A DNA stretch of 64,000 nt from Nocardioides iriomotensis (GTDB lineage: Bacteria > Actinomycetota > Actinomycetes > Propionibacteriales > Nocardioidaceae): positions 1 to 64,000 of the forward strand of contig NZ_SDPU01000037.1 in NCBI RefSeq assembly GCF_004168035.1, read 5' to 3'. Shown in pieces: positions 35,442-50,116 of this stretch. The notes under the pieces are model-generated. The model was not told the origin of the DNA, did not search any database, and saw nothing but the letters and a program-made list of their open reading frames with translations. Each line of letters opens with the position of its first letter. Positions within the stretch are counted from its first letter, which is position 1. The position numbers were made by a program, and so were the translations under genes.

Positions 35442-36688
35442 CAGCCGGCGCCTCCCGGGCTCCAGCCGGCCTCGATCTCGGCCGTGGCGGCGTCCTCGGG
35501 GAGCACGATCTCGGCCTTGCCGTCCTGCCACTGGCCGATCAGGAACTCACCCTGCGGAGCGCCGGTCTCGTCCCACGAGAGCGGACCGAGGATGGTCTCG
35601 ACCTCGTTCGCGTGCAGCCAGTCGGCGAGCGCCTGCTGGTCGTCGATGCTGCCCACGGCCTCGACGGCCGCCTGCAACACCTGGGCCGCGGCGAACGCGT
35701 CGGCGGCGTCCTCCGGGACGGCGCTCGTGCCGAACATCTCCTCGTACTTCTTGACGAACTCGGCGTTGCCGGGGGTGTCCGCCTCGGGCGAGTGGCTCAC
35801 GGCGTAGATGATGCCCTCGGTGTTCTCCTCGCCGATGCCCTCGGTGAACTGGTCGCCGAACGACGGGGCGTTGGTCTGGAAGAACATGTCCGGGGTGAAG
35901 CCGGCCTTGAGCATCGAGCGGGTCATGCCGATGCCGTCCTCGAACTGCGCACCGTTCACCACCAGGTCGGGGTCGGCGTTCTTCATCGCGTTGACGATCG
36001 TGTCGAAGTTCTTGGTGTCGATCGCGTAGGTCTCCTGGTAGACCGTCTCGACGCCGGCCGGCTCGAGCATCGCGCGGATCCCGTCGACGACGGGGCCGGC
36101 GAACGGGTCGTCCAGCGTCGGGTACGCCGCGGTCTTGGGCCGCTGGTCCTCGGGCAGGCTCGCCACCCACTCGGCGAAGACCTTGCCCTGCTTGTCGGCC
36201 GTGGCCTGCTGGGCGAAGAAGAGGTACTGGTAGCCGCGACTGAAGATCTCGGGCGAGCCGCCGGCCGGCTCGACGTAAAGCATCTGGTTGCGCTCGGCCA
36301 CGGAGGACGCGGGCAGGTTCAGCAGCGACGAGAACGTCCCGAGAAGGAGGTCGACCTTGTCCTGGCTGATCAGCGCGTTGTAGTCGGCGACGATGGTGTT
36401 CTGGTTGGAGGCGTCGTCCTTGACGACCAGCTCCACCTGGCGGCCGAGGAGGCCGCCCTCGTCGTTGATCATCTTCTGCCAGACCTCGTAGCCCTCCTTG
36501 GCGGCCTGGCCCGGCTGGGAGAACTCACCGGTCAGCGGCAGCGACGTGCCGATCTTGATCGGCTCCGACGACTGCTCGCCACCGTCGCCGTCGCCGCTGG
36601 AGCCACCGCCACAGGCGGCGAGGGCGAGCACGAGCGCACCGCCCAGGGCAGCGGCTTTCCACCCGCGCCGGGTCGAGAGTTGCGACAT
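35441..36688 (-). CDS. Branched-chain-type ABC transporter substrate-binding lipoprotein
   Basis: 415 residues. Lipoprotein signal: basic MSQLSTRRGWK, hydrophobic stretch, lipobox LAAC with Cys26, then a Gly/Ser/Asp linker. The mature part is a type I periplasmic-binding fold of the LivJ/AmiC kind (IKIGTSLPLTGEFSQPGQAAKEGYEVW, LLLGTFSSLLNLPASSVAERN). It captures the imported compound on the outer face. Ligand unknown; similar proteins bind amino acids, amides, urea or aromatic acids. First gene of livK-livH-livMG-livF. Confidence 0.92.
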   Translation of the reverse strand: MSQLSTRRGWKAAALGGALVLALAACGGGSSGDGDGGEQSSEPIKIGTSLPLTGEFSQPGQAAKEGYEVWQKMINDEGGLLGRQVELVVKDDASNQNTIVADYNALISQDKVDLLLGTFSSLLNLPASSVAERNQMLYVEPAGGSPEIFSRGYQYLFFAQQATADKQGKVFAEWVASLPEDQRPKTAAYPTLDDPFAGPVVDGIRAMLEPAGVETVYQETYAIDTKNFDTIVNAMKNADPDLVVNGAQFEDGIGMTRSMLKAGFTPDMFFQTNAPSFGDQFTEGIGEENTEGIIYAVSHSPEADTPGNAEFVKKYEEMFGTSAVPEDAADAFAAAQVLQAAVEAVGSIDDQQALADWLHANEVETILGPLSWDETGAPQGEFLIGQWQDGKAEIVLPEDAATAEIEAGWSPGGAG

Positions 36689-36705
36689 CTTTCCTCCTCG
36701 GGGAT

Positions 36706-36721
36706 CCGCAATCGATTGCGG
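36706..36721. promoter_or_regulatory. LacI-type box A, CCGCAATCGATTGCGG
   Basis: A perfect 16-base palindrome 18 bases upstream of the binding-protein ATG. It shares the GCAATCG core with four other sites in the window (36808, 55367, 56539, 56608). The even-length palindrome with a central CG is typical of LacI-family operators. Confidence 0.7.
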
Positions 36722-36807
36722 TTAGCCGCAGTCTTGTGAGTGGCGCCACACTCTGTCAAGCACCCAGCGACAACGAATTGAGCAACCCATCGGGTCCCGT
36801 CGGGCTA

Positions 36808-36823
36808 TTGCAAACGAGTGCAG
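36808..36823. promoter_or_regulatory. LacI-type box B, TTGCAAACGAGTGCAG
   Basis: A degenerate copy of the same palindrome (5 of 8 half-site pairs). It lies 20 bases before the FAD oxidoreductase ATG and 102 bases from box A centre to centre, in the divergent region. Confidence 0.55.
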
Positions 36824-36843
36824 GACTGGTGCAGATTACGGCC

Positions 36844-38424
36844 ATGCCCGACCAGCCCGTCGCCGACCCGCCACCGCTCCCCGACGAGGTCGAGGTCGTC
36901 GTGATCGGCGCCGGCCACAACTCGCTCGTCTGCGCCGGCTACCTCGCCCGCGCCGGCCTGGAGGTGCTCGTGCTCGAGGCGTCCCCGACGTACGGCGGGA
37001 ACACCCGGACCGAGCCGCTGACCCTGCCCGGCTTCGCCCACGACTCGTGCTCGAGCGCGCACGTCCTGATCCAGAACAACCCGCTGATCCGCGACGACGA
37101 GCTCGACCTCGTGGCGCGCTACGGGCTCACCTACCTGACGACCGACCCGGCGGTCGTGATGCCGCTGCCCGACGGCGACACCCTCGTGATGCGGCCCGAC
37201 CTGGAGGCGACCGCCGACGAGCTGGCGCGCTTCTCGCCCGCCGACGCCCGGCAGCTCACCGCCATGATCGGCGAGTGGCAGGACGGCCTGGCTGCCGCGC
37301 ACGGTCGCTGGAGCTCGAACCTCCCTCCCGGTGACGACGACGTGGCCCGGCGCTACTCCGCCCTGCGCTCGCGCAGCGCGTGGGACGTCGTGCACGAGCG
37401 GTTCGAGCACCCGGTGGTCCGGGACTTCGTGCTGTGGCTGGCGATGGCGACGATCCAGGACCCGCGCCGCCCCGGCACGGGCTTCCTGCCGTCGTCGCTG
37501 ACCGCGGGACGGCTGTCGTTCGGGTGGACCACGCCGGTCGGCGGCAGCCAGGCGCTCCCCGACGCGCTGGTCCGGCTGCTCGAGGACCACGGCGGCCGGG
37601 TCGCCTGCTCCTCCCCCGTCGCCGCGATCGAGGTCGGCAGCGACGGCGTGCGCCGGGTGCGGACGGCGGACGGCCGCTCGGTGGCGGTCACCGGCGCGGT
37701 CGTCGCGGGCGGCCACCTCCAGCAGCTCGCCGGCATGCTCGAGGGCGTCGACGTCCCCGCCGACCTCGCGCGTGCCCGCGACGCCTGGCGGCCCGGGTTG
37801 TCGGTGTTCGCCGTGCACGCGGCCCTGAGGGACGACCTGACCTTCGGCTCGGCGGGCATCCGCAGCACGGCGGCCGGCTTCGGCACCGCCGCCGGGTACG
37901 CCGCCCAGGTGGACGCCCACGAGCGCGGGGAGTGGTCCGTCGACGACCCGTGGCTGCTGGTCGTCGACCAGACCGTGGTCGACCGGTCGCGGGCGCCGGC
38001 GTCGGGTGGCGCGACGTTCAAGATCCTCACCATCGCGCCGTACACGCTGGCCGACGGGCGCGACTGGGCCGACGCCAAGCACGAGCTCGGCGAGCGGCTG
38101 ATCGGGATCGTCGCCTCTCGCGCGGGCGGCCTCGGCGACGGCGACGTGCTGACGTGGCGCGCGGAGTCCCCGGTCGACGTGGCCGCGCACAACCCGCACA
38201 ACCTCGGCGGCTCCTGCCACGGCGGCGAGTTCCACTGGCCGGGCGCCGACGTCGACGTCGTCGCGGGCTGGCCGAGGTACACGACCGACCTGCCGGGGCT
38301 CTACCTGACCGGCGCGACGACGCACCCCGGCGGCTCGGTGTCCGGCCGGCCCGGCCGCAACGCCGCGCGCGCCGTGCTGTCCGGGCTCGGCCTCGACCCG
38401 GCGAAGGTGATGGGCCCGACCTAG
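36844..38424 (+). CDS. CrtI-like NAD(P)/FAD-dependent oxidoreductase
   Basis: 526 residues of the phytoene-desaturase/amine-oxidase superfamily. FAD motif VVVIGAGHNSLVCAGYLARAGLEVLVLE (about 15-42), then GGNTRTEPLTLPGF. The C-terminal flavin signature is LYLTGATTHPGGSVSGRPGRNAAR. It may oxidise a substrate of the divergent liv transporter; nothing in the context suggests carotenoid synthesis (no crtE or crtB). ATG at 36844 is chosen over a longer version that would run through the operator region. The stop shares CTAG with the stop of the convergent membrane gene. Confidence 0.87.
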   Translation: MPDQPVADPPPLPDEVEVVVIGAGHNSLVCAGYLARAGLEVLVLEASPTYGGNTRTEPLTLPGFAHDSCSSAHVLIQNNPLIRDDELDLVARYGLTYLTTDPAVVMPLPDGDTLVMRPDLEATADELARFSPADARQLTAMIGEWQDGLAAAHGRWSSNLPPGDDDVARRYSALRSRSAWDVVHERFEHPVVRDFVLWLAMATIQDPRRPGTGFLPSSLTAGRLSFGWTTPVGGSQALPDALVRLLEDHGGRVACSSPVAAIEVGSDGVRRVRTADGRSVAVTGAVVAGGHLQQLAGMLEGVDVPADLARARDAWRPGLSVFAVHAALRDDLTFGSAGIRSTAAGFGTAAGYAAQVDAHERGEWSVDDPWLLVVDQTVVDRSRAPASGGATFKILTIAPYTLADGRDWADAKHELGERLIGIVASRAGGLGDGDVLTWRAESPVDVAAHNPHNLGGSCHGGEFHWPGADVDVVAGWPRYTTDLPGLYLTGATTHPGGSVSGRPGRNAARAVLSGLGLDPAKVMGPT

Positions 38425-38831
38425 ACCAGCCGCGGCCGGATCGTCCCGCCGGCGAGGACGGCCCCTACGACCGGCCCCGCGACGAGGGTCAGGACCGGGT
38501 GGTCGGTCGTCACGGACAGGACCGTCCACGTGAGCAGGCAGGCGGCGACCCCGACGACCGGCCCGAGCACGCGGTGCCCGCCGCCGAAGTGCCGCACCAC
38601 GAGCGCGGCGGGCAGCAGGCTCAGCGCCACGGCCGCGACGGCACCGCCCAGCCAGAGGCCCACGAGGGTGGAGAGCGACACGGTGTCGTCGGTCGCCATC
38701 GCGACGGCGTACACCACCGCGGCGGACAGCACGGCGAGCGCGCTACCGACCACCGTCGCGAACAGCGCGCCGACCGCGACCGCGGTCGTGCCCACACCGC
38801 GCCAGCGCCAGCTGGTGTCGGTGTCCCTCAT
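38421..38831 (-). CDS. Membrane protein of unknown function (tandem pair, second copy)
   Basis: 136 residues with four predicted helices. Loop sequence RHFGGGHRVLGPVVGVAACLLTW resembles RSFRGAHPVLGPFAAVCAGLP in the gene just upstream, so the two are diverged duplicates. The ATG at 38831 overlaps the upstream stop (ATGA). Function unknown. Confidence 0.65.
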   Translation of the reverse strand: MRDTDTSWRWRGVGTTAVAVGALFATVVGSALAVLSAAVVYAVAMATDDTVSLSTLVGLWLGGAVAAVALSLLPAALVVRHFGGGHRVLGPVVGVAACLLTWTVLSVTTDHPVLTLVAGPVVGAVLAGGTIRPRLV

Positions 38832-39259
38832 GCGACCGGCTCCGGCGCCGGCGCGGGTACGCCGACCGGCCGACGGATCAGCAGGCCGAGCACGAGGACC
38901 TCGACGACGGCAGCCACGAGCGTCCCGGCCGTGAACGTGCCGGTGACGCCGCCGACGAACCCGGCCACCGGCAGCCCGGCGCAGACGGCGGCGAACGGCC
39001 CGAGCACCGGGTGCGCGCCGCGGAACGACCGCACCACGACCATCGCGGGGACGGACGTGAGCGCGGCGGTCAACGGGATCGCCGCGCCGAGCAGGAGGAA
39101 AGGCCCGGCGTGGCCGAGGTCGAGCCCGGTGGCGCCCACCAGCTCGCCCAGCAGGAGCAGGACACCGAGACCGCCGAAGCCGCCCAGCAGGTAGCCGGCG
39201 ACGAGGCTCGCGGCGACGGCGAGCGTCGCGACCAGCCACCATCTCCGCGTAGTGCCCAT
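38828..39259 (-). CDS. Membrane protein of unknown function (tandem pair, first copy)
   Basis: 143 residues with four predicted helices (LVATLAVAASLVAGYLLGGFGG at the N-terminus) and a Pro/Ala-rich tail. It is translationally coupled to its diverged duplicate downstream. I do not recognise the family. Confidence 0.65.
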   Translation of the reverse strand: MGTTRRWWLVATLAVAASLVAGYLLGGFGGLGVLLLLGELVGATGLDLGHAGPFLLLGAAIPLTAALTSVPAMVVVRSFRGAHPVLGPFAAVCAGLPVAGFVGGVTGTFTAGTLVAAVVEVLVLGLLIRRPVGVPAPAPEPVA

Positions 39260-39316
39260 CGGACCCCCTTGCGAGGACGGTAGTCCGCCTGGGGCCGTCC
39301 GCGCACCGGTTCGGGG

Positions 39317-40591
39317 TCAGGCGAGGATGCGGACCGGGTGCTCCAGCAGGTCGACGAGCGCCCTCATCCACTGCGCGGCGACGACGCCGTCGACGGGGCG
39401 GTGGTCGACCGACAGGGTCAGCCGGAGGACCTTCCCGACCGCGAGCGCGCCGTTGACGACGACCGGCTCCTCGGTGACGGCGCCGACGGCGAGGATCGCG
39501 GCGTGCGGCGGGTTGATGATCGCGGCGAACTCCTCGGTGCCGTACATCCCGAGGTTGGTCACGCTCATCGAGCCGCCCTCGAGGTCGTCCTGGCGGAGCT
39601 TGCCCGTGCGGGCGCGGGCGACGAGGTCCCGGACCTGGGCGGCCAGCGCGGTCACGGTGAGGCTGCCGACGTCGCGGACCACCGGGGTGAGCAGGCCACG
39701 CTCGGTCGCGACGGCGACCGCGAGGTCGACGGTCGAGAACCTCCGGATCGCGTCGTCGGTCCAGATGACGTTCATGTCGGGCACGGCGACATGGGCCGCG
39801 GCGGCGGCCTTCACGACGAGGTCGTTGAGCGACACCTTCTGCTCGCGGCCCTCGTTGACCTCCGCGCGCAGCGCGACCAGCGCGTCGGCCCGGACGGTCG
39901 CGCGCAGGTAGAAGTGCGGCGCGGTCGTCTTGCTCTGCGTCAGCCGGGCAGCGGTGGCGCGGCGGATCCGGGAGTGCGGCACGTCGTCGTACGGCGCGCC
40001 CGCGGGCGGTGCGGCGGCGGGGGCGAGCGGTGGGGCGGGCGTCGCGGCGCGCGCGGCGACGGCCTTCTCGACGTCGCGGCGCAGGATCCGCCGGCGCGGG
40101 CCGGTGCCGTCGATCTCCTCGACCGGGATCCCGGCGTCCTTCGCGAGCCGGCGGGCGAGCGGGCTGGCGAAGACCCGGCCATTGGTCTCGACAGGCTCGA
40201 CCCGCCGGGACTGCTCGACCAGCCGGGACGGCTCGACCACCCGGGGAGCGGGGTCGGGCACGTCCCGCCGCTCCGGCACGACCGCGTCGGCCGGCGACGT
40301 CTCGGCGACGCCGAGCTCGGCCAGCAGCGCGGCCAGGTCGGCGACCTGCTCCCCCGGGTCGCCGAGCACCGCGATCGGGGCGCCGACCTCGACCTGGGCG
40401 CCCGGCGGGACGAGCACCTTGAGCACGACGCCGGGCTCCTCCGCCTCGACGTCGACGACGGCCTTCTCGGTCTCGACGGTGGCGATCGTGTCCTCGGCGG
40501 CGAACGACGCGTTCTCGGCGACGGTCCAGTCCGACAGCACCGCCTCGGTGGCGTTGGCCGCGACCTCGGGCATCCGCAGCAGGCGGGCCAC
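39317..40591 (-). CDS. 2-oxoacid dehydrogenase E2 (dihydrolipoamide acyltransferase)
   Basis: 424 residues. One lipoyl domain with lipoyl Lys43 in ETEKAVVDV; an E3/E1-binding peripheral domain (PLARRLAKDAGIPVEEIDGTG, about 142-178); a catalytic domain with the active-site motif SVDHRPVDG (His397). It transfers the acyl group from E1 to CoA. Residues about 115-136 (VVEPSRLVEQSRRVEPVE) come from a dispersed DNA repeat lying in the first interdomain linker. GTG start one base after the E1 stop. No E3 gene is nearby. Confidence 0.93.
   Translation of the reverse strand: MARLLRMPEVAANATEAVLSDWTVAENASFAAEDTIATVETEKAVVDVEAEEPGVVLKVLVPPGAQVEVGAPIAVLGDPGEQVADLAALLAELGVAETSPADAVVPERRDVPDPAPRVVEPSRLVEQSRRVEPVETNGRVFASPLARRLAKDAGIPVEEIDGTGPRRRILRRDVEKAVAARAATPAPPLAPAAAPPAGAPYDDVPHSRIRRATAARLTQSKTTAPHFYLRATVRADALVALRAEVNEGREQKVSLNDLVVKAAAAAHVAVPDMNVIWTDDAIRRFSTVDLAVAVATERGLLTPVVRDVGSLTVTALAAQVRDLVARARTGKLRQDDLEGGSMSVTNLGMYGTEEFAAIINPPHAAILAVGAVTEEPVVVNGALAVGKVLRLTLSVDHRPVDGVVAAQWMRALVDLLEHPVRILA
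40184..40248. repeat. Dispersed 19-base repeat plus an 18-base tandem repeat inside the E2 gene
   Basis: GGTCTCGACAGGCTCGACC (40184-40202) is the exact reverse complement of 42804-42822. It runs into about three 18-base units beginning GCTCGACC (40195-40248). Together they encode part of the E2 linker in frame. Confidence 0.75.
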
Positions 40592-40592
40592 G

Positions 40593-42773
40593 TCAGTACC
40601 TCGCGATCTCGTCGAGCGCCGCGACGACCTCGTCGGCCTGGGCGATCGCGGCCCGTTCGAGCACCTTGCTGATGCTCGGCGACGCCTCGCCGCCCGTGAC
40701 CCGCCAGACCGGCGCGTCGAGGAGGTCGAAGAACCGCCGGGTGATCTCGTCGGCGAGCCAGCCGCCGTACGACGTGCCGACGGCGCCCTGCTCGGCGATC
40801 AGCACGCGGTTGGTCTTCTCGATGCTGGCCTCGATCGTGTCCCAGTCGATGCTCGCCCGGTCGAGCCAGCGCAGGTCGATCACCTCGGCGTCGAGCTCGC
40901 CGTAGCGCTCCACGGCCTCGAGGACGTACGGCACCATCGCGAGGTAGCTGATCACCGTCACGTCGGAGCCCTCGCGCCGGACCGCGGCCTTGCCGACCGG
41001 CAGGCAGTAGTCGAGGTCGTCGACAGGGCCGGGCCCGGTGGCGTTGTAGAGGTCGACGTGCTCCAGCACGACGACCGGGTCGTCGAGACGGAGCGCGGTG
41101 TTCATCAGGCCGACGTAGTCGTACGGCGTGGTGGGCGCGACGATCCGCCAGCCGGCCGAGGTCGCGAAGACGCCGGCCGGGTCCATCGAGTGCTGGGAGC
41201 CGTAGCCGGTGCCCATCGCGACCTTGCTGCGCAGCACGAGCGGCACCGCGCCGTCGCCGCCGAACATGTGCCGGGCCTTGGCGATCTGGTTGAACAGCTG
41301 GTCGGCCGCGACCCACATGAAGTCGGCGTACATGAACTCCACGACCGGCCGGAACCGCCCGTCGATCGCGATGCCGCCGGCCAGGCCGGCGAAGGCGTTC
41401 TCGGCGATCGGGGTGCCGAGGACGCGGCCGGGGAACCGGTCGGGCAGCCCGCGGGTCGCGCCGTTGGTGCCGCCGTTGAGCCGGTGCACGTCCTCGCCCA
41501 TCACGACGATGCGGTCGTCAGTCTCCATGCGGCGACCCATGACCGCGGCGACGGACTCGATGAGCTTCGTGTCCTGCACGGCGACGGCGTGCCCGGCCGG
41601 GTCGACGGTCGGAGCGTCGTCGAGCTCGGAGAGGTCGCCGCGCACGCCGACGTCGACGTACGACGGGTCGGGCCACTCCTCGGCGCGGATCTGGCGCTCA
41701 CCGGGCTTCCCGCCGGGCTTGGGCTCGAGCAGCACGTCACCGATGGACGCCATCGTGGCCTTGGCGATCTCGACGCTGCGCGCGAGCTCGTCGCTGGTGA
41801 GCAGCCCACGTCGCTCGAGGTGCGCGGCCGTCAGCGCGAGCGGGTCGCGCTCGCGCCACTGCTTCTCCTCGTCCTTGCCGCGGTAGCCGAACGCGCTGCC
41901 GGGGAAGCCGCCGTTCTGGTGGAAGAAGCGGTAGGTGTCGGCCTCGACGAGCGTCGCGCCCTTGCCCGACCGCATATGCGCAACGGCCTCGCTCGTCGCG
42001 AGGTACGTCGCGAGCGGGTCCATGCCGTCGACCTTCCAGCTGGCCAGGCCGAACCCGGCGCCGCGCGCGGACAGCCGCGGCTCGCCGGTGGCCTCCTCCA
42101 CGTTGGTGGAGACGGCGTAGCGGTTGTTCTCGACGAAGAAGCAGACCGGCAGCTTCCACGCGGCCGCGAGGTTGAACGACTCCAGGGTCGAGCCGATGTT
42201 GATCGCGCCGTCACCGAAGTACGTCACCGACACCGCGTCGGTGCCGGCCTGCCGGTGCGACCACGCGAAGCCCGCCGCCTGCGGGACGCCTCCGCCGACG
42301 ATGGCGTTGGTGCCCATCGCGCCGGCGTCCTTCCACTGCAGGTGCATCGAGCCGCCCCGGCCGTGGCTCCAGCCGCGGTCGAGCCCGCAGATCTCGGCGA
42401 GCGTGCGCAGCAGCACCTCGCGGACCTCGTCGGTCGGCTCGGCGAGTGGGTCGAGCAGCTTGGGCTCGACGTGGTGCAGCGCCTTGGCGAGGAACTGGTG
42501 GTGCCCGCGGTGCGAGCCGTTGACCGAGTCCGCGCTGGTCAGCGCGAGCACGGACCCGACCGCGCCGCCCTCCTGCCCGATCGAGGAGTGCGCCGGCCCG
42601 TGGATCAGGCCGGCACCGGCGAGCTCGAGGACGTACTCCTCGAACGTCCGCACCCACACCAGCTGGGCGTGCATCGTGCGCAGCAGGTCGGGGTCGGCGG
42701 CGTCCCAGTCCTCCTGGGTGGCGACGACCTCGACCCAGGGGGCGTCGGGGACGAGCCGGCGGTGCTCGGGCAT
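40593..42773 (-). CDS. 2-oxoacid dehydrogenase E1, fused alpha and beta subunits
   Basis: 726 residues. The N-terminal half is E1-alpha with the thiamine-diphosphate motif GDGAINIGSTLESFNLAAAWKLPVCFFVENN. The C-terminal half (from about 385) is E1-beta (VVMGEDVHRLNGGTNGATRGL, PIAENAFAGLAGGIAIDG, SVTVISYLAM-like VTVISYLAM). The complex decarboxylates a 2-oxo acid and passes the acyl group to E2. The substrate (pyruvate, acetoin or branched-chain type) cannot be read. ATG at 42773 has GAGGGAG upstream. Divergent from the VOC-GntR operon across a region with two GntR-type palindromes. Confidence 0.93.
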   Translation of the reverse strand: MPEHRRLVPDAPWVEVVATQEDWDAADPDLLRTMHAQLVWVRTFEEYVLELAGAGLIHGPAHSSIGQEGGAVGSVLALTSADSVNGSHRGHHQFLAKALHHVEPKLLDPLAEPTDEVREVLLRTLAEICGLDRGWSHGRGGSMHLQWKDAGAMGTNAIVGGGVPQAAGFAWSHRQAGTDAVSVTYFGDGAINIGSTLESFNLAAAWKLPVCFFVENNRYAVSTNVEEATGEPRLSARGAGFGLASWKVDGMDPLATYLATSEAVAHMRSGKGATLVEADTYRFFHQNGGFPGSAFGYRGKDEEKQWRERDPLALTAAHLERRGLLTSDELARSVEIAKATMASIGDVLLEPKPGGKPGERQIRAEEWPDPSYVDVGVRGDLSELDDAPTVDPAGHAVAVQDTKLIESVAAVMGRRMETDDRIVVMGEDVHRLNGGTNGATRGLPDRFPGRVLGTPIAENAFAGLAGGIAIDGRFRPVVEFMYADFMWVAADQLFNQIAKARHMFGGDGAVPLVLRSKVAMGTGYGSQHSMDPAGVFATSAGWRIVAPTTPYDYVGLMNTALRLDDPVVVLEHVDLYNATGPGPVDDLDYCLPVGKAAVRREGSDVTVISYLAMVPYVLEAVERYGELDAEVIDLRWLDRASIDWDTIEASIEKTNRVLIAEQGAVGTSYGGWLADEITRRFFDLLDAPVWRVTGGEASPSISKVLERAAIAQADEVVAALDEIARY

Positions 42774-42803
42774 GGGACTCCCTCGGGTGGTCGGCTTCCG
42801 GGT

Positions 42804-42822
42804 GGTCGAGCCTGTCGAGACC
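42804..42822. repeat. Dispersed repeat GGTCGAGCCTGTCGAGACC
   Basis: 19 bases, exact reverse complement of the copy inside the E2 gene at 40184-40202. TGTCGAGACC is shared with 43501-43510. It lies in the E1 5' region. Confidence 0.7.
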
Positions 42823-42837
42823 TCCACGATGGCACAC

Positions 42838-42851
42838 CATTGGATCCAATG
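42838..42851. promoter_or_regulatory. GntR operator candidate 1, CATTGGATCCAATG
   Basis: A perfect 14-base palindrome in the 185-base divergent region between E1 and VOC, 65 bases upstream of the E1 ATG. The GntR-type gene is the second gene of the rightward operon. Confidence 0.68.
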
Positions 42852-42903
42852 TCGAGAGATCGGCCCGGGCCGTCGACACAAGCACGGCGATGTGCTTCAG
42901 TGG

Positions 42904-42913
42904 TTGGATCCAG
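42904..42913. promoter_or_regulatory. GntR operator candidate 2, TTGGATCCAG
   Basis: Shares the TTGGATCCA core with the site at 42838. Centres are 64 bases apart, about six helical turns, so the two dimers would face the same side of the DNA. Confidence 0.62.
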
Positions 42914-42958
42914 TACGCCGTACCGACGAGGTACCCAGCGACGACCAGGAGGACGTGC

Positions 42959-43531
42959 ATGGGGCTGCCCGGGATGCGCCGGATTGACCACGTCGGGTTC
43001 ACCGTGCCGGACCTCGACGCCGCCCACGCCTGGCTCGTCGACGTGCTCGGCGCGGAGTACCTCTACGCGCTCGGGCCGTTCGCCCACCCCGACGAGGACG
43101 ACGACTGGATGGCCACCCACCTGCGCGTGCACCCGCGCGCGACGATGCGCAACCAGTGGTACCGCGTCGGCGGCGAGACGATGTTCGAGGTCTTCGAGTA
43201 CTCCTCCCCCGACCAGCGCGACGCGATCCCCCGCAACAGCGATGTCGGCGGCCACCACGTGGCGCTGTACGTCGACGACATCGACGCCGCGCTCGAGCAC
43301 CTGCGGGCGCACGACGTCGAGGTGTTCGACGGTCCGACGGCCAGCAAGGGGCCGGCCGAGGGCAACCGGTGGATCTACTTCCGCGCGCCGTGGGGGCTGC
43401 AGATGGAGCTGGTCTCCTACCCGGGCGGCAAGGCGTTCGACCGGCACGGGGCGGTGGAGACCTTCGAGACGGCTCGTTCCTCGCCTCCTCAGGAACCCCT
43501 TGTCGAGACCACTGGAGGATCGGGCACGTGA
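42959..43531 (+). CDS. VOC-family (glyoxalase/dioxygenase fold) protein
   Basis: 190 residues. N-terminal IDHVGFTVPDLDAAHAWLVDVLGAEYLY and the second module GGHHVALYVDDIDAALEHLRAHDVEVF are the paired beta-alpha-beta-beta-beta units; metal ligands are probably His11-type, the HH of the second unit and Glu in MELV. The last 21 residues are encoded by repeat-like DNA (43470-43515) and are probably non-essential. The ATG has AGGAGG upstream. Role: isomerase, dioxygenase or epimerase in the local pathway. Confidence 0.87.
   Translation: MGLPGMRRIDHVGFTVPDLDAAHAWLVDVLGAEYLYALGPFAHPDEDDDWMATHLRVHPRATMRNQWYRVGGETMFEVFEYSSPDQRDAIPRNSDVGGHHVALYVDDIDAALEHLRAHDVEVFDGPTASKGPAEGNRWIYFRAPWGLQMELVSYPGGKAFDRHGAVETFETARSSPPQEPLVETTGGSGT
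43470..43515. repeat. Repeat-like tail of the VOC gene
   Basis: This stretch (GGCTCGTTCCTCGCCTCC, then TGTCGAGACC at 43501-43510) contains the right half of the dispersed repeat seen at 42804. It encodes the low-complexity VOC C-terminus just before the GntR start. Confidence 0.5.
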
Positions 43532-44199
43532 CGCAGACGATCGAGGTCCCCACGGGTGCGGCCAGCGCCCGCATCGCCGGCCGGCTGCGCGACGAGATCC
43601 TCCGCGGCGACCTGCGCCCCGGCGACCGGATCCGGCAGGAGGAGGTCGCCGAGCGGTTCGGCGCGAGCCGGCTGCCGGTGCGCGAGGCGCTGCGCATCCT
43701 CGAGGCCGAGGGCCTGACCGAGCACGAGACCCACAAGGGCGCGCGGGTGCCGCGGCTGTCGCAGCACGAGGTCGAGGTCATCTACCAGATGCGCGAGCGG
43801 CTCGAGCCCCTCGCGCTCGCCGAGAGCATCGCCGCGCTCACCGACGGCGACGTCGCCCGCATCGAGGAGGTGCAGCAGCACATCGAGGCCGACGGTGACG
43901 GCATCGACGTCGCGCGCTTCCTCGAGCTCGACCGGGAGTTCCACATGGCGACCTACTCCGCCTGCGCGATCGACCCGCTGATGTCGAACGTCCGGCGGCT
44001 GTGGAACTCCACGCAGCACTACCGCCGCGCCTTCGTCGCCCTCTCCGGTCCCGGCCGCATGTGGGTGGTCAACGCCGAGCACCGGCTGATCCTCGACGCC
44101 GTCGAGCGCCGCGACCCGGTCGACGCCGAGCGGTACCTGTCCGGCCACATCCGGCGCACCCGCATCGAGCTGGCCAAGCACCCCGAGGTCTTCGGATGA
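43528..44199 (+). CDS. GntR-family regulator, FCD (FadR) subgroup
   Basis: 223 residues. Winged helix 12-75: RIAGRLRDEILRGDLRPGDRIRQEEVAERFGASRLPVREALRILEAEGL. The C-terminal FCD ligand domain has the metal-site pattern DREFHMATYSA and AEHRLILDAV. Ligands are usually small carboxylates. The GTG overlaps the VOC stop (GTGA). It likely controls both sides of the divergent region through the TTGGATCCA palindromes, and so itself. Confidence 0.92.
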   Translation: MTQTIEVPTGAASARIAGRLRDEILRGDLRPGDRIRQEEVAERFGASRLPVREALRILEAEGLTEHETHKGARVPRLSQHEVEVIYQMRERLEPLALAESIAALTDGDVARIEEVQQHIEADGDGIDVARFLELDREFHMATYSACAIDPLMSNVRRLWNSTQHYRRAFVALSGPGRMWVVNAEHRLILDAVERRDPVDAERYLSGHIRRTRIELAKHPEVFG

Positions 44200-44663
44200 C
44201 GACACCCTTCACGGTCAACGGCCGCGACGTCACCGTCGACGCCCAGCCCGACACGCCGCTGCTCACCGTCCTGCGCGAGGACCTCGGCCTGCTCGGCAGC
44301 CGGTTCGGCTGCGGCCTCGGCCTGTGCGGCGCGTGCTTCGTGCGGCTCGACGGGCACGTCGTACCGGCGTGCGACACCCCGCTGTGGCAGGCCGAGGGCA
44401 AGGACGTCGTCACGGTCGAGGGACTCAGCGAGCCGGGACACGCGCACCCTGTCCAGCAGGCGATCCTCGACCGGCAGGCCGCGCAGTGCGGCTTCTGCAT
44501 CAGCGGCATCGTCGTCAACGCCGCCACCCTGCTCGACGAGCAGCCCGACGCCGACGAGGAGGACGTCGTCGCGGCCCTCGACCGCAACCTCTGCCGCTGC
44601 GGCGTCCAGCGGCGCATCGTCGACGCCGTGCTCGCGGCGCGGTCCGGAGCGGCCTCGTCGTGA
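44196..44663 (+). CDS. [2Fe-2S] small subunit of a molybdenum hydroxylase
   Basis: 155 residues. The plant-type cluster is bound by GCGLGLCGACFV plus a later Cys; the second cluster by QCGFCISGIV and NLCRCGVQRRI. This is the XdhC/IorA/CoxS-type electron-transfer subunit. ATG overlaps the GntR stop (ATGA). It pairs with the large subunit next to it. Confidence 0.95.
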   Translation: MTTPFTVNGRDVTVDAQPDTPLLTVLREDLGLLGSRFGCGLGLCGACFVRLDGHVVPACDTPLWQAEGKDVVTVEGLSEPGHAHPVQQAILDRQAAQCGFCISGIVVNAATLLDEQPDADEEDVVAALDRNLCRCGVQRRIVDAVLAARSGAASS

Positions 44664-46732
44664 CCACCACCGAGCCCCTCCGCACGGTCGACGTACCTCC
44701 GCACGTCGCGGACAACCCCCGCCTCGGCCAGTGGATCTCCTTCCCCGACGACCTCTCGCCCGACGCCGTCGGCGTCCGCATCGGCAAGGTCGAGCTGGGC
44801 CAGGGCATCGTCACCGCCCTCGCCCAGGTCGCCGCCGACGCCCTCGCCCTTCCGGTCGCGCAGGTGCGGATGCTCAACGCACACACGGGTCTCGGCCCCG
44901 ACGAGGGACTCACCGCGGGCAGCCTGTCGATGGTGCAGGCGGGTCCGGCACTGCGGTACGTCGGAGCCGTCGTCCGGGACCTCGTCGCCCGGGTCGCCGA
45001 CGACCACCCCGGCGCGTCCTTCGTCGACGTCGCACGCACGCTCGACCCGGCAACCGACCTCGCGACGTGGGAGCCGCGCACCGACCAGCCGCCCGTACGG
45101 CGCGTCGTCGGCACCGACCTGCCGCGGCTCGACCTGCCCGACAAGGTGCTCGGCCGGCCGCGCTACCTCGCCGACCTGCGCCCGGCCGGGCTGCGCTACG
45201 GCCGCGCCCTCCGCCCACCGTCCTTCGGCGCAACCCTCGTGGACGTCGACGCGGCGAAGGTCGAGGGGCTGCAGCTCGTGCGCGACGGGTCGTTCGTCGG
45301 CGTCGTCGCCGCCACCGAGGCGGAGGCCGACGCGGCTCTGGTCCGGCTGCGCGAGGCGACGACCTGGGACGAGCGGGACCTGCTGCCCGACGAGCACGAC
45401 CTGACCACGTTCCTCAAGGCTGGTCCCCACGACGACATCCCGGTCCTCGACGAACCCGACGCCCCCGCACCGACCCACACCGCGACGTACACCCGCCCCT
45501 TCCTCGCGCACGCGTCGATCGCGCCGAGCTGCGGCCTCGCCCGGTGGAGCGACGACGGAACGACCGTGCACGTGTGGAGCCACAGCCAGGGCATCCACAA
45601 CCTGCGCGCCGCGATCGCGACCTCGCTCGGCCTCGACGCGGCGGCCGTGACCGTCGAGCACGTCGAGAACGCCGGCTGCTACGGCCACAACGCCGCCGAC
45701 GACGCCGCCTTCGACGCCGTCCTGCTCGCCCGCAGCGTGCCCGGCACCGCTGTCCAGGTCCGCTGGAGCCGGCGCGACGAGCTCGCGTGGGGTCCGCTGG
45801 CGTCCGCGATGGTCGCCGACCTCTCTGCGACGCTGGCCGGAGGCCGGGTCACCGGCTGGCGGCACGACGTGTGGAGCCAGGGGCACAGCAGCCGCCCCGG
45901 CTACGGCGGGGGAACACCCGGCCTGCTCGCCGGGCAGCACCGCGCCGACCCGGACCCGTCCCCCGCGGCCGGCGACCCGCCGCCCGACCGGGGTGGCGGC
46001 ACGACCCGCAACGCCGTCCCGATCTACGACGTCGGCCCCCGCAGCATCGCCGGCCACCGCCTCAGCGCGTCGCCGCTGCGCACCTCGGCGATGCGTGCGC
46101 TGGGCGCGTACCTCAACGTCTTCGCGATCGAGTGCTTCATGGACGAGCTGGCCGAGCAGGCCGGCACCGACCCGGTCGACTTCCGGCTCGCCCACCTCGC
46201 CGACGAGCGGGCCCGGGCCGTGATCGAGCGCGCCCGCGACGGGTCCGGCTGGGGCACGCCCCTGCCCGACGAGACCGGTCGCGGCATCGGCTTCGCCCGC
46301 TACAAGGACCGCGGGGCCTGGTGCGCGGTCGTCGCCGAGGTCACCGTCGACCATGAGGTCCGCGTGCGCCGGCTGACGATCGCCGTCGACGTCGGCCTCG
46401 CCGTCAGCCCCGACGGTGTCCGCAACCAGATCGAGGGCGGCGCCACCCAGGCGACGAGCTGGACCACCAGGGAGCGGGTCCGCTTCGACCGGCGCCGGGT
46501 CACCAGCGACGACTGGGAGACCTACCCGATCCTGCGGTTCAGCGAGGCCCCGCTGGTCGACGTGCACGTCATCGACCGGCCCGACCAGCCGTCGCTCGGC
46601 GCCGGCGAGGCCGCCCAGGGCCCGACCGCCGCCGCCATCGCCAACGCCGTGCACGCGGCCCTCGGGGTCCGCGTCCGTGACCTGCCCCTGACCGCCGACG
46701 CGGTCGTCCGAGCCATCGAGCAAGCCGAGTAG
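44660..46732 (+). CDS. Molybdopterin-binding large subunit of a molybdenum hydroxylase (two-subunit type)
   Basis: 690 residues, xanthine dehydrogenase/aldehyde oxidase superfamily, nearer the isoquinoline-oxidoreductase/nicotinate-hydroxylase branch. Motifs: IGKVELGQGIVTAL near the N-terminus, YTRPFLAHASIAPSC, WSHSQGIHNLRAA, RTSAMRALGAYLNVFAIE, and the catalytic-Glu motif LGAGEAAQGPTAAAIANAV. With the Fe-S subunit it probably hydroxylates an N-heterocycle or oxidises an aldehyde. No FAD subunit gene and no maturation gene is adjacent. GTG overlaps the small-subunit stop. Confidence 0.9.
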   Translation: MTTTEPLRTVDVPPHVADNPRLGQWISFPDDLSPDAVGVRIGKVELGQGIVTALAQVAADALALPVAQVRMLNAHTGLGPDEGLTAGSLSMVQAGPALRYVGAVVRDLVARVADDHPGASFVDVARTLDPATDLATWEPRTDQPPVRRVVGTDLPRLDLPDKVLGRPRYLADLRPAGLRYGRALRPPSFGATLVDVDAAKVEGLQLVRDGSFVGVVAATEAEADAALVRLREATTWDERDLLPDEHDLTTFLKAGPHDDIPVLDEPDAPAPTHTATYTRPFLAHASIAPSCGLARWSDDGTTVHVWSHSQGIHNLRAAIATSLGLDAAAVTVEHVENAGCYGHNAADDAAFDAVLLARSVPGTAVQVRWSRRDELAWGPLASAMVADLSATLAGGRVTGWRHDVWSQGHSSRPGYGGGTPGLLAGQHRADPDPSPAAGDPPPDRGGGTTRNAVPIYDVGPRSIAGHRLSASPLRTSAMRALGAYLNVFAIECFMDELAEQAGTDPVDFRLAHLADERARAVIERARDGSGWGTPLPDETGRGIGFARYKDRGAWCAVVAEVTVDHEVRVRRLTIAVDVGLAVSPDGVRNQIEGGATQATSWTTRERVRFDRRRVTSDDWETYPILRFSEAPLVDVHVIDRPDQPSLGAGEAAQGPTAAAIANAVHAALGVRVRDLPLTADAVVRAIEQAE

Positions 46733-46744
46733 AGGAGCCCCGCC

Positions 46745-47398
46745 ATGTCCACACCGACCAGTCCCCGCAAGCCCCGCATCTCCTACGTCCCCTACGAGGA
46801 CATGGACGAGCGCATGCAGGCCGAGATGGACCGCGCCGCCGCGCACGGCACCCCGCGCCCGGAGACCAACGCGGTCCGCGCGCACGTGCCCGCGGCGTTC
46901 TGGGCGTTCGCCGGGCCGTGGGAGCAGATGTTCCGCAACGGTGTCGTCGACCACTCGATCAAGGAGCTGTGCCGCGTCTACATCTCGCGCACGGTCACGT
47001 GCGAGTTCTGCGGCAACCAGCGCTCCGAGCGTGGCGCGAACGAGGGTCTCGTCGAGGGCCAGTACGACGAGCTGCTCAACTTCGAGTCGTCCGACAGGTT
47101 CGACGACCGACAGAAGGCGGCACTCGCCTACGCCCAGGCGATCGCGTGGAACGAGGACGACCGCGACGGGCTGTGGGACCGGCTGCACGCGCACTTCTCC
47201 GAGCCGGAGCTGGTCGAGCTCGGCTGCGTGATCGCCCTGACCTTCGGCCAGCAGAGCTGGATCCGGCTGCTCGACGTCGACCACCACCAGTACATGGCCG
47301 GCACGTCGGCGTCGATGGCGCCGGGCTTCGAGGACGCCGACGCGCTGGCCGCGTCGAAGGCGAAGACCGACTACTGGGCGGCCGGTGCGCCGCGCTGA
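46745..47398 (+). CDS. Carboxymuconolactone-decarboxylase/AhpD-like protein
   Basis: 217 residues, all helical. The family helix FRNGVVDHSIKELCRVYISRTVTCEFCGNQRS carries the CxxC pair; the His usually three residues later is Gln. It may be a peroxidase-type or decarboxylase-type enzyme; the pathway context favours a catabolic or detoxifying role. RBS GAGGAG about 6 bases upstream. Last gene of the VOC-GntR-Mo hydroxylase operon, and its end overlaps the convergent methyltransferase by 28 bases. Confidence 0.82.
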   Translation: MSTPTSPRKPRISYVPYEDMDERMQAEMDRAAAHGTPRPETNAVRAHVPAAFWAFAGPWEQMFRNGVVDHSIKELCRVYISRTVTCEFCGNQRSERGANEGLVEGQYDELLNFESSDRFDDRQKAALAYAQAIAWNEDDRDGLWDRLHAHFSEPELVELGCVIALTFGQQSWIRLLDVDHHQYMAGTSASMAPGFEDADALAASKAKTDYWAAGAPR

Positions 47399-48156
47399 GG
47401 GACCACACCCCGCACGCACCAGGCGGTCCCGGGCAGCTCGAACGGCGGCGCCGGCAGCTGCTCTCGCAGGTGGTCGGCGAACGCCGCGCGGTGGGTCTCG
47501 TCGAGGCCGCTGACCGTGTCCCCGGCGGGGCCGACGCCGAACGTGTAGGGCTCCCACCACTCCTCGAACGACTCGTAGCGCACCGAGACCGTGAGCGTGA
47601 ACGGCCAGACCTCGACGAGCCCGGCCTCGGTCGCGACCCGATCCAGGTCGCCCTCGACCTCGCCGGTGCGCCGGTCGGGCGGCGGCGGGTCGGCCAGGAA
47701 CGACTGCGCGGCACGCCCGAACAATGACAGCGGCCCGCGTCCGCCGCCGTGGTCCCAGCTCGAGATGAGGACGTGCCCCCCGGGCTTCGTCACCCGCGCC
47801 ATCTCCCGCACCCCCGCCACCGGGTCCTGCATGAAGTGCACGACGAGCTGGGCCAGCGCCGCGTCGAACACCCCGTCGTCGTAAGGCAGCTGCTCGGCCG
47901 ACCCCTGCCGTACGTCGACGTCGGGAAAGCGCTCGCGGGCGGCCGCGACGAACGGCTCGGACGGGTCGATCGCGGCCACGTGGTCGGCGCCGAGCAGCTC
48001 GACGAGCGGACCGGTCAGCACACCGGGACCGCAGCCGACGTCCAGCGCGCGGTCGCCCGGCGACAGGCCGGACCGCTCGACGAACGGTCCCGCGAGCTGC
48101 GCGGAGTAGCGACCCATGAAGCGGTCGTAGGCCTCCGCGGCGACGTCGAAGCTCAT
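47371..48156 (-). CDS. SAM-dependent methyltransferase (UbiE/methyltransf_11 type)
   Basis: 261 residues. Motif I ALDVGCGPGVLTGPLVELLG, acidic VAAIDPSEPFVAAARERFP, and the post-motif region FDAALAQLVVHFMQDPVAGVREMARVTKPGGHVLISSWD. Substrate unknown. The ATG at 48156 is preferred. It is divergent from the XRE-cupin gene by 36 bases. Confidence 0.88.
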   Translation of the reverse strand: MSFDVAAEAYDRFMGRYSAQLAGPFVERSGLSPGDRALDVGCGPGVLTGPLVELLGADHVAAIDPSEPFVAAARERFPDVDVRQGSAEQLPYDDGVFDAALAQLVVHFMQDPVAGVREMARVTKPGGHVLISSWDHGGGRGPLSLFGRAAQSFLADPPPPDRRTGEVEGDLDRVATEAGLVEVWPFTLTVSVRYESFEEWWEPYTFGVGPAGDTVSGLDETHRAAFADHLREQLPAPPFELPGTAWCVRGVVPQRGAPAAQ

Positions 48157-48180
48157 GTCCCGGAAGGTACGCCGCGCCCG

Positions 48181-48186
48181 TACCAT
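48181..48186 (+). promoter_or_regulatory. -10-like TACCAT, leaderless promoter of the XRE-cupin gene
   Basis: TACCAT ends 6 bases before the ATG at 48193. Confidence 0.5.
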
Positions 48187-48192
48187 CGCGCC

Positions 48193-48777
48193 ATGGCCGA
48201 CGACGCGCTCTCGCTGACCGTCGGCGCCCGACTCCGCGAGGCCCGCGAGGCCCGGCAGCTGTCGCTGCGCAGCCTCGCCCGCGCGGTGGACCTCTCCCCC
48301 GGCATGCTGTCGCAGATCGAGAACGGTCGCGCCCGCCCGTCGGTGGGCACGCTCTGGGCGCTGGTCAGCGAGCTCGGGCTGTCACTCGACGCCGTGTTCC
48401 CGAGCGCCGAGGAGACGGCGACCTCCGCGCCGGCGGGACCGGTCGTGCAGCGCGCGGGTCGGCGCCAGGTGCTCGAGCTCTCCGGCGACGTCAGCTGGGA
48501 GCAGCTCAACGCACCCGACGACACCGATGTCGTGTTCGCCTACGTCACCTACCGTCCGGGCGGGGCGGGCCAGGAGCACGAGGGCCTGCCGCTCGCGCGG
48601 CACACCGGCCAGGAGTACGGCTACGTCGTGAGCGGGCGCCTCGTGGTCGAGGTCGGCGACGACGAGCTCGAGCTCGGGCCGGGCGACGCGATCACGTTCG
48701 GCTCGGACACGCCGCACCGGTTCCGCGCGGCCGGCGAGAAACCCGCCTGCGCGGTCTGGTTCAACCGCGCGCGCTGA
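48193..48777 (+). CDS. XRE-family regulator with C-terminal cupin sensor
   Basis: 194 residues. HTH about 8-65 (VGARLREAREARQLSLRSLARAVDLSPGMLSQIENGRARPSVGTLW) and a cupin barrel 100-190 (HTGQEYGYVVSGRLVVEVGDDELELGPGDAITFGSDTPHRF). Such proteins sense small metabolites, as PuuR-type or SutR-type regulators do. It precedes, on the same strand, three catabolic genes and probably controls them. Confidence 0.92.
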   Translation: MADDALSLTVGARLREAREARQLSLRSLARAVDLSPGMLSQIENGRARPSVGTLWALVSELGLSLDAVFPSAEETATSAPAGPVVQRAGRRQVLELSGDVSWEQLNAPDDTDVVFAYVTYRPGGAGQEHEGLPLARHTGQEYGYVVSGRLVVEVGDDELELGPGDAITFGSDTPHRFRAAGEKPACAVWFNRAR

Positions 48778-48779
48778 GA

Positions 48780-48785
48780 TAGCCT
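48780..48785 (+). promoter_or_regulatory. -10-like TAGCCT, leaderless promoter of the beta-hydroxyacid dehydrogenase gene
   Basis: TAGCCT begins 3 bases after the XRE stop and ends 6 bases before the GTG at 48792. The catabolic genes therefore have a promoter separate from the regulator. Confidence 0.5.
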
Positions 48786-48791
48786 CCGTCT

Positions 48792-49685
48792 GTGTTTAAC
48801 CAAATTGAACAGGTCGGCTTCGTCGGCCTCGGTGCGATGGGCGCGGGCATCGCGCAACGGGTGACGGACGCTGGCCACCCGCTCGTCGTCTGGAACCGCA
48901 CCCGGAGCAAGGCCGAGGGCCTCCTCGACGCCGGCGCGACCTGGGGCGGCACGCCCCGCGAGACCGCCGCGCGGTCGGACGTCCTCTTCACGATGCTGAC
49001 CAACACCGCCGCGGTGGAGGCGACCGCGGACGGCGCGGACGGCGTCCTCGCCGGGCTGCGGCCCGGCACGGTCTGGTGCGACCTGAGCACCATCTCGCCC
49101 GAGGCCAGCATCGCCCTGTCCGCGCGGGTCGCCGAGACCGGCGCGCACTTCCTCGACACCCCGGTCTCCGGCAGCCCCGCGACCCTCGCGGCCGGCCAGA
49201 TGTCGGTGATGGTCGGCGGCGAGCGCGCGGCGTTCGACCACGTCGAGACGGTGCTGCACGCGATCGGTCCCAAGGTCACCTACATCGGACCGGCCGGGCA
49301 CGCGATCCTCAGCAAGGTCGCGATCAACCTCGCGCTGGTCGTCTCGGTCACGGCGTTCGCCGAGGCCGTCACGCTCGTCGAGAAGGCCGGCGTCAACCGG
49401 GCCGCCGTCGTCGACGCGGCGCTGAAGAGCGTGATCGCCTCGCCGGTCATCGGCTACCGCGCACCGCTGCTCGTCGACGACACGGACGTGTTCGCCGACG
49501 TCGAGCTGCAGCAGAAGGACCTCGTGCTCGCCCAGGAGCTGGGCCGCAGGCTCGGCGCCGCCGTACCCACCTGCTCGGCGGCCAGCGAGATGCTCAGCGC
49601 GGCACGCAGCTCCGACCTCTCCGACCGCGACTTCCTGGTGAGCGTCGCGGACACCTACCGACGGATGGCGGGGATCCCCACATGA
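48792..49685 (+). CDS. Beta-hydroxyacid dehydrogenase (3-hydroxyisobutyrate dehydrogenase family)
   Basis: 297 residues. NAD(P) motif VGFVGLGAMGAGIAQRV; substrate loop FLDTPVSGSPATLAAGQMSVMVGG; catalytic Lys in AILSKVAINLALVVSV. It oxidises a 3-hydroxy acid or reduces the semialdehyde. The GTG start lies in an AT-rich near-palindrome (48794-48810, GTTTAACCAAATTGAAC), a possible XRE operator. First of three catabolic genes. Confidence 0.9.
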   Translation: MFNQIEQVGFVGLGAMGAGIAQRVTDAGHPLVVWNRTRSKAEGLLDAGATWGGTPRETAARSDVLFTMLTNTAAVEATADGADGVLAGLRPGTVWCDLSTISPEASIALSARVAETGAHFLDTPVSGSPATLAAGQMSVMVGGERAAFDHVETVLHAIGPKVTYIGPAGHAILSKVAINLALVVSVTAFAEAVTLVEKAGVNRAAVVDAALKSVIASPVIGYRAPLLVDDTDVFADVELQQKDLVLAQELGRRLGAAVPTCSAASEMLSAARSSDLSDRDFLVSVADTYRRMAGIPT

Positions 49686-50116
49686 CCGAGGCCCGGAAGC
49701 CCTACCGCACCACGATCCACGACGTGCCGCTCGAGCAGGACCTCCGCGAGGACGAGGGCTGGGTCGACATGCAGGTGCAGTACCTCATCGACCAGCGCAC
49801 CGCCGGCTCGTCCGACCTCGTCGTCGGCCGCACCGTGCTGCCGCCCGGTGCCCGGCACGACCGGCACCTGCACACCGACGCCGACGAGTTCCTCGTCGTG
49901 ATGTCCGGCGAGGGCGAGATCCACACCAACACCGGCCGGGAGCCGTCGAGGGCCGGTGACGTGATCTGGACCCCGCGCGGCAACTACCACGGCTTCGTCA
50001 ACACCGGCGACGAGGACGTGCTGCTGATCTGGGGCTGGAGCGGCGCCGGCGGGCTCGACGCTGCGGGCTACGGTCTGCCCGGACCCGACGAGACGTTCGA
50101 CGATCCCGAGGACTGA
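49682..50116 (+). CDS. Cupin-domain protein
   Basis: 144 residues, one cupin: metal ligands in PPGARHDRHLHTDADEFLVVMSGEGEIH and the second motif GDVIWTPRGNYHGFVNTG. Probably an isomerase, dioxygenase or lyase of the pathway. ATG overlaps the dehydrogenase stop (ATGA). Confidence 0.85.
   Translation: MTEARKPYRTTIHDVPLEQDLREDEGWVDMQVQYLIDQRTAGSSDLVVGRTVLPPGARHDRHLHTDADEFLVVMSGEGEIHTNTGREPSRAGDVIWTPRGNYHGFVNTGDEDVLLIWGWSGAGGLDAAGYGLPGPDETFDDPED

Follow-up and report, generated by a model that had tools for sequence, protein, structure and literature searches.

The window, meaning the whole 64,000-nucleotide stretch of the Nocardioides iriomotensis genome analyzed here, contains a divergent gene unit (Table 1). 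Genes for E1 and E2 of a 2-oxoacid dehydrogenase lie to the left. Genes for a VOC-superfamily protein, a GntR/FCD regulator, and the 2Fe-2S and molybdopterin-binding subunits of a molybdenum hydroxylase lie to the right, with VOC first and the regulator second, the order that the first-pass annotation had given. The real start of the molybdopterin-binding subunit is probably a few codons upstream of 44684. No FAD subunit of a molybdenum hydroxylase was seen among the neighboring genes scanned, and we take a MoCoBD_1/MoCoBD_2 subunit that lacks this partner to look like the two-subunit isoquinoline/nicotinate type. A larger block (35441-50807) encodes SBP, an amine-oxidase-like protein, E2, E1, VOC, GntR, MoS, MoL, CMD, HIBDH, and a 2-keto-4-pentenoate-hydratase-like protein; it is syntenic in several loci of relatives (L033, L035, L038, L039, L040). 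This block is probably a single catabolic island.

Table 1. Genes and predicted regulatory features of the divergent unit (positions in the window)
Feature	Position	Strand	Remarks
2-oxoacid dehydrogenase E2	39317..40591	-	lipoyl, E3-binding, and acyltransferase domains
Fused 2-oxoacid dehydrogenase E1 (alpha-beta)	40593..42773	-	Pfam E1_dh, Transket_pyr, Transketolase_C
E1 start codon	42771-42773	-
Left (E1-side) predicted operator	42838..42851	.	perfect 14-bp palindrome CATTGGATCCAATG
Inter-operator segment, putatively looped DNA around the divergent promoters	42845..42908	.	64 bp; spacing class 6 turns
CTCGACA, match to the conserved CT.GA element	42850..42856	-	directly adjoins the left operator, toward the loop
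Right (VOC-side) predicted operator	42904..42913	.	TTGGATCCAG, core TGGATCCA at 42905-42912
VOC/glyoxalase-superfamily protein	42959..43531 (ATG 42959)	+	gene 1 of the right-hand operon; Pfam Glyoxalase_4 1.4e-14
GntR/FCD regulator, VanR group (from the structure model)	43528..44199	+	GTG start 43528 overlaps the VOC stop
2Fe-2S subunit of molybdenum hydroxylase	44196..44663	+	optional member; ATG overlaps the GntR stop
Molybdopterin-binding subunit	44684..46732	+	Pfam MoCoBD_1 and MoCoBD_2 only
Carboxymuconolactone-decarboxylase-family protein	46745..47398	+	frequently shares the locus with molybdenum hydroxylase genes

Between the divergent genes are two palindromes whose centers, at 42844.5 and 42908.5, are 64 bp apart, as the first-pass annotation had also noted. 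The left one contains TTGGATCCAA at 42840-42849 and the core TGGATCCA at 42841-42848. Exact copies of TTGGATCCA occur in the window solely at these two positions. With one mismatch allowed, the window has four matches to it versus 3.24 expected in shuffles, which is no excess, so the argument is carried by pairing and conservation. The 4.71-Mb genome contains one further TTGGATCCA, an unpaired site (G000:C18:4010-4018). The core TGGATCCA has 47 sites genome-wide, and the only close pair among them is the one described here; about 0.03 pairs within 64 bp are expected by chance (arithmetic from the genome count).

The regulator belongs to the FCD subfamily of the GntR superfamily, with Pfam GntR (1e-16) and FCD (3.2e-24) domains both above cut-off. 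None of the 16 NCBIfam equivalog families listed (phnR_burk TIGR03338, for example) scored above cut-off, the best reaching 99.5 versus 271.5 bits. The VanR group of FCD proteins is described as defined by six, not seven, effector-domain helices (PMC7797058). The predicted structure (monomer model, mean pLDDT 91.7) has a winged helix-turn-helix followed by six long FCD helices at residues 77-99, 104-123, 126-140, 147-171, 173-191, and 195-214, and a short C-terminal one at 217-220. By this model, with its six effector-domain helices, the regulator is a member of the VanR group. Structural matches include McbR (Z 23.5, rmsd 2.7, 212 residues aligned), AlkR(VanR) (Z 22.8, rmsd 2.6, 208 aligned), PmiR (Z 21.9, rmsd 3.0, 199 aligned), and Atu1419 (Z 18.3, rmsd 4.5, 212 aligned). 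Residues D133, H137, H183, and H205 are invariant in 21 sequences; an aspartate and three histidines in the FCD domain are presumably the metal-site motif of the VanR group.

We take VanR to be the repressor of the Caulobacter crescentus vanillate promoter. A described fragment of that promoter contains ATTGGATCCAAT and ATTGGATCCAG (PMC6538847), operators that are almost letter for letter those of the window. The paired palindromes of the window are close to ATTGGATCCAAT and in this are of VanR type, a comparison with one promoter only. The Caulobacter operators, as given there, differ in being 39 bp apart, a distance that is no integral number of helical turns and is outside the spacing series described below, and the genes, the lineage, and presumably the ligand are different. 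Among the matches listed in a literature text search for ATTGGATCCAAT, most look unrelated. The palindromes are very probably operators of the regulator at 43528-44199, and linkage and relatives suggest that this protein recognizes both.

We also looked for promoter elements. A CT.GA element is conserved among 50 representative loci (C in 33, T in 42, G in 37, A in 24) and, read on the strand toward E1, is possibly the -10 of the E1 promoter; the left operator would then cover the transcription start. A scan of 42700-43050 found no sigma-70 consensus promoter, and no clear -10 was recognized on the VOC side.

Conservation of the unit in relatives

A search of 197 genomes of the family with the GntR protein found matches at E <= 1e-20 in 55, from which 20 loci were taken wider, and the best 80 of 496 relatives in a public genome collection were used. 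With the window, these make a first set of 101 loci, many of which come from draft assemblies or metagenome-assembled genomes. When the protein search was widened to 396 genomes of the phylum, only the genome of the window was found at E <= 1e-45, with few candidates scored per genome and orthologues possibly missed. Divergent E1 is present in 91 of the 101 loci; the other ten have no full divergent E1 (L037, L069, L092, L094, L096, L102, L105, L123, L126, L128). Two loci had an empty search region (L050, L129), which leaves 89, or 81 distinct loci after removal of eight duplicates.

A VOC orthologue is present in 90 of the 91 loci with divergent E1. Among the 52 loci that extend 5 kb or more to both sides of GntR, E2 is present in 50 and molybdenum hydroxylase genes in 32 (duplicates included). 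The latter follow the identity of the GntR protein: they occur in 19/19 loci at 70-80% identity, 12/17 at 65-70%, 1/8 at 60-65%, and 0/8 at 40-60%, duplicates again included. The common core is E1 and VOC-GntR, nearly always with E2, and the molybdenum hydroxylase genes are confined to part of the family. Paired operators occur both with and without these genes. The view of the first-pass annotation that the unit joins a 2-oxoacid dehydrogenase to a molybdenum hydroxylase in a pathway of hydroxylation, ring opening, and decarboxylation is unsupported, the core common to the loci being E1, VOC, and GntR.

Among the neighbors identified at other loci are M24 peptidases, an ABC importer, and an aldehyde dehydrogenase. 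An M24 metallopeptidase gene is beside or near the unit in loci where molybdenum hydroxylase genes were not found or are elsewhere (6629-8008 in L106, 8247-9485 in L081), and in L106 an ABC importer also adjoins it. We attempted to name the pathway; neither the varied neighbors nor a literature search on the gene set gave an assignment.

Operator sites were called as 8-mers with at most one mismatch to TGGATCCA, searched from the E1 start to the VOC body (located through its DHxG motif in 75 of 76 loci). A pair is present in all 81 distinct loci, in 70 of them with both sites at one mismatch or better and in 11 with a two-mismatch partner (76 pairs and 13 single sites with duplicates counted, 70 and 11 without). 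The left-operator position has a TGGATCCA-like site in 81/81, a few with one or two mismatches. Conservation of the palindromes between related genomes had been put forward as a test of the first-pass annotation, and the pair passes it. Its reading of the region as an autoregulated divergent unit stands as far as the architecture goes, with conserved paired operators and a GntR/FCD repressor; autoregulation itself is what we infer from this arrangement.

A few site calls involved a choice. Four loci have an alternative pairing of sites with at most one mismatch, each time with more mismatches than the pairing used. Three single-site loci (L041, L077, L085, two of them mutual duplicates) have an extra two-mismatch site at 70, and another (L054) has one at -27; in these four the CGGATCCG site at 75 was chosen. 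Among excluded loci, L123 has a pair at 63, L129 a pair at 74, and L050 one perfect site.

Spacing and base composition between the operators

Whole-turn spacing is the main, informative feature of the operator pair, a point that the first-pass annotation had missed although it gave the 64-bp distance. The spacings of the 70 loci are 47 (1 locus), 52 (14), 53 (1), 62 (9), 63 (13), 64 (19), 73 (1), 74 (6), 75 (5), and 85 bp (1), and the ranges 54-61, 65-72, and 76-84 are empty. The 11 two-mismatch loci have their second site at 62, 63, 74, 75, or 76. In total, 80 of the 81 distinct loci are at 52-53, 62-64, 73-76, or 85 bp, which is about 5-8 helical turns, and one is at 47. Phasing at a period of 10.5 bp is strong (R 0.866 for 70 loci; R 0.889 for 25 representatives below 75% GntR identity, a value reached by 0 of 20000 uniform draws). 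The best-fit period is 11.2 bp for 80 loci (bootstrap 11.05-11.40, with the tree ignored) and 10.9 bp (10.6-11.2) for the 25 representatives. Distances from operator to gene show no phasing, whether measured between the left operator and the E1 start (R 0.20) or between the right operator and the DHxG motif of VOC (R 0.15).

The same spacing classes were reached more than once. Parsimony on a maximum-likelihood tree of the 81 GntR proteins, quickly built and weak at many forks, gives 12 changes of spacing class, one of them in the 47-bp locus. The branches with strong support by themselves require 3 changes for the 6-turn class, 3 for the 7-turn class, and 2 for the 5-turn class. The 47-bp locus (L104, NZ_VJYI01000003.1) is half a turn off in a clade that is otherwise at 52-53, and its left operator is degraded (GGGATCCA). 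It is possibly a natural half-turn mutant. A true exception, it may be a defective switch or may speak against the rule being strict.

These distances bear on a simpler explanation, in which each GntR dimer blocks its own promoter from an independent operator and no loop forms. Each site is indeed near its own gene (the left operator is 14-71 bp from the E1 start), and many double-site divergons of the FadR subfamily are described as independent by Suvorova et al. (PMC4494728). Independent operators need no phasing, however, and here the operator pairs are phased in all but one of the distinct loci whereas the distances from operator to gene are not. We consider this explanation quite unlikely, also in view of the base composition reported below.

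The spacing rule was also examined in loci outside the first set. A pattern search for TGGATCCA-N38-68-TGGATCCA, not tied to GntR, found matches in 23 of 393 genomes of the class. Twelve are E1/VOC-GntR loci, with spacings of 52, 52, 52, 62, 62, 63, 63, 64, 72, 73, 75, and 75; seven of these were already in the first set (the window, L044, L049, L134, L135, L136, and L147) and five are new. The 11 pairs in other contexts scatter (48, 52, 53, 56, 56, 57, 60, 62, 65, 69, 74). Of 85 genomes of another family, the one that holds the five new loci, 25 have a match, giving 26 loci. Divergent E1 is absent from the stretch in four of them (L176, L177, L182, L183) and present in 22, all of which have two sites with one mismatch or none. 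Twelve of the 22 were dropped for a loop identical to one in the first set, which leaves ten fresh loci, including the five new ones, at 62, 62, 63, 63, 63, 64, 64, 64, 72, and 73. Nine of the ten are within windows preset from the first set (51-53, 62-64, 73-76, 84-86), and the tenth, at 72, is one base below. At least nine of ten would occur by chance with a probability of about 3e-4 if the loci were independent and uniform over 46-76, a figure that is too low because the loci are related; two of them (L179 and L184) are possibly near relatives. One locus (L145) has three perfect TGGATCCA sites, at 1501, 1565, and 1627, with gaps of 64 and 62 bp. The E1 match, which ends at 1544, overlaps or borders the first two sites, of which the first may be inside E1; the pair next to VOC was used.

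Two loci in which E1 was not detected also retain the pair near GntR. L105 has VOC-GntR, no E1 detected, and a pair at 63; L102 has GntR, neither E1 nor VOC detected, and a pair at 52. L037, with no E1 detected, has a single perfect site. Within 1.1 kb upstream of GntR the pair is absent from two loci in which E1 was not detected, L094 (no site) and L126 (one weak site). L069, L092, L096, and L128 have less than 450 bp upstream of GntR and are uninformative for the pair.

That the palindromes serve another regulator, or are chance GGATCC-type sequences, could be suspected from the frequency of the core in the genome of the window. We find this hardly credible given a phased pair in 80/81 distinct E1-VOC-GntR loci, its retention near GntR in the two loci just described, and the same palindromes in the Caulobacter van promoter fragment.

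The GC content between the operators oscillates about every 10.5 bp, with an amplitude of 0.067 in 50 representatives against a maximum of 0.027 in 2000 shuffles. The fixed-period control, taken downstream of the right operator, was equaled or exceeded by 434 of 2000 shuffles. The oscillation is in register with both operators (mean 0.147, 48/50 positive), also in the smaller sets of representatives (0.158, 25/25 positive; 0.177, 16/16 positive below 70% identity), and none of 2000 shuffles reached the mean of the 50-, 25-, or 16-locus set. By class, the in-register values are 0.182 for 5 turns, 0.156 for 6 turns, and 0.082 for 7 turns; the 7-turn class is weak, with 17 of 2000 shuffles as high, and 132 of 2000 in the fixed-period test. 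The ten fresh loci have a mean of 0.276 (10/10 positive, shuffle maximum 0.108) and the 11 two-mismatch loci a mean of 0.115 (9/11 positive). The controls are flat: pairs in other contexts have a mean of 0.002 (5/11 positive) and the flank beyond the right operator 0.004 (39/75 positive). That the pattern is present between the sites and absent from the flank also argues against independent operators. In the window itself it is weak (0.065). The shuffle nulls take no account of the tree; against this, the low-identity representatives, the ten fresh loci, and the tree itself serve as safeguards.

The position 21.5 bp from the left center is G or C in 31 of the 32 six-turn representatives, with C in 15 and G in 16. 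The class of base is kept and the base itself is free, as would be expected from selection on shape, not mere shared ancestry. The GC peaks are whole helical turns away from the operator centers. The minor groove at an operator center is assumed to face the repressor, and minor grooves inside a bend prefer A/T (the nucleosome rule). Peaks at whole turns would therefore put the repressor-bound face outside the bend, unlike the simple picture of DNA wrapped around protein. Possibly the loop bends away from the repressor, or the complex that closes it is shaped differently.

A proposed repression loop

Atu1419 of Agrobacterium fabrum is described as a VanR-group FCD tetramer with a six-helix effector domain, with structures under PDB 6z74, 6za0, 6za3, 6za7, and 6zab (PMC7797058). 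It has two 10-bp palindromes upstream of its own gene and atu1418; by electron microscopy the tetramer loops DNA between palindromes 190 bp apart, and its two DNA sites are about 10 nm apart (PMC7797058). The key Arg45 of Atu1419 adjoins Ser44 in the recognition helix (PMC7797058), and this pair corresponds, by motif and not by structure alignment, to the invariant Ser45-Arg46 of the GntR protein described here. Atu1419 differs in its palindrome (ATGTATACAT) and its 190-bp distance, and the text available to us presents no evolutionary series of phased spacings (PMC7797058). An arc of 52 bp is about 18 nm long, which by arithmetic is compatible with the 10-nm chord of the Atu1419 tetramer.

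Phased looping is described for the lac repressor, whose family is unrelated to GntR/FCD. Its loops in E. coli depend on helical phase at 57.5-155.5 bp and in vivo fit a repeat of 11.6 bp, versus about 10.5 in solution, for which the authors invoke supercoiling (PMC1762422). The period fitted here, 10.9-11.2 bp, is between these values. The lac spacings are engineered, whereas those of this divergon are natural.

A VanR-group tetramer, a phased operator pair, and a repeat between the two lac values lead us to propose that a GntR tetramer holds both promoters in a loop. The GntR protein, made from the right-hand operon, would bind the two ATTGGATCCAAT-like palindromes on either side of the divergent promoters. 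It would bridge the operators, most likely as a tetramer of two dimers, and close a loop of 5-8 turns, or 52-85 bp. Only spacings of the same helical phase would close such a loop well, so that evolution would gain or lose whole turns, and the once-per-turn GC/AT pattern of the loop DNA would ease bending. We think that the GntR protein probably bridges both operators into a short phased loop in this way and switches off both divergent operons. The 47-bp locus, the weak GC wave of the window and of the 7-turn class, the GntR loci with a single site or none, and the 39-bp Caulobacter spacing speak against this reading. A metabolite of the pathway would release the repressor.

Phasing and bendability are explained equally well if no single tetramer closes the loop. 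Dimers on the same face might instead cooperate through bent or protein-coated DNA, the coat being a nucleoid protein or RNA polymerase trapped between the dimers, or through an extra row of weak sites, and the GC wave runs in a direction that a simple wrap would not predict. We estimate that 52-85 bp is too far for contact between dimers on straight DNA, and a looping VanR-group tetramer has a precedent in Atu1419. We therefore regard cooperation of this kind as unlikely and prefer closure of the loop by one tetramer.

A whole-turn rule is known in kind. NrdR boxes (PMC12051234) and tandem IclR sites (PMC8222616) are described with an optimum or over-representation at whole helical turns; those sites are 2-4 turns apart, whereas this divergon spans 5-8 turns and has a GC-phased interval. 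Suvorova et al. (2015) divide the double-site divergons of the FadR subfamily into constant-distance and growing-distance types, and the accessible portion of their text contains no statement on whole-turn steps (PMC4494728). In the literature searched, with partial coverage, no report of whole-turn spacing at such GntR operators was found. Within that literature, a GntR/FCD divergon with a natural series of 5-8 turns and a bending pattern is new.

We are evenly divided on a broader reading, that these loci are a natural series of very short VanR-group repression loops that stepped repeatedly through 5, 6, 7, and 8 turns and have an anisotropic bending pattern, with G/C at whole turns from both operators. 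The period, about 11 bp, may reflect the helical repeat of supercoiled DNA in living actinobacteria. To our knowledge, most evidence for helical phasing of operator pairs comes from engineered spacings. Some 90 natural loci display the phasing rule directly here, together with a natural half-turn exception. With this locus set, one can test whether FCD/GntR repressors generally loop DNA as tetramers, what the lower size limit of a natural repression loop is, and whether selection acts on the bendability of loop DNA itself. Paired phased sites also give a simple route to operator prediction for this GntR family.
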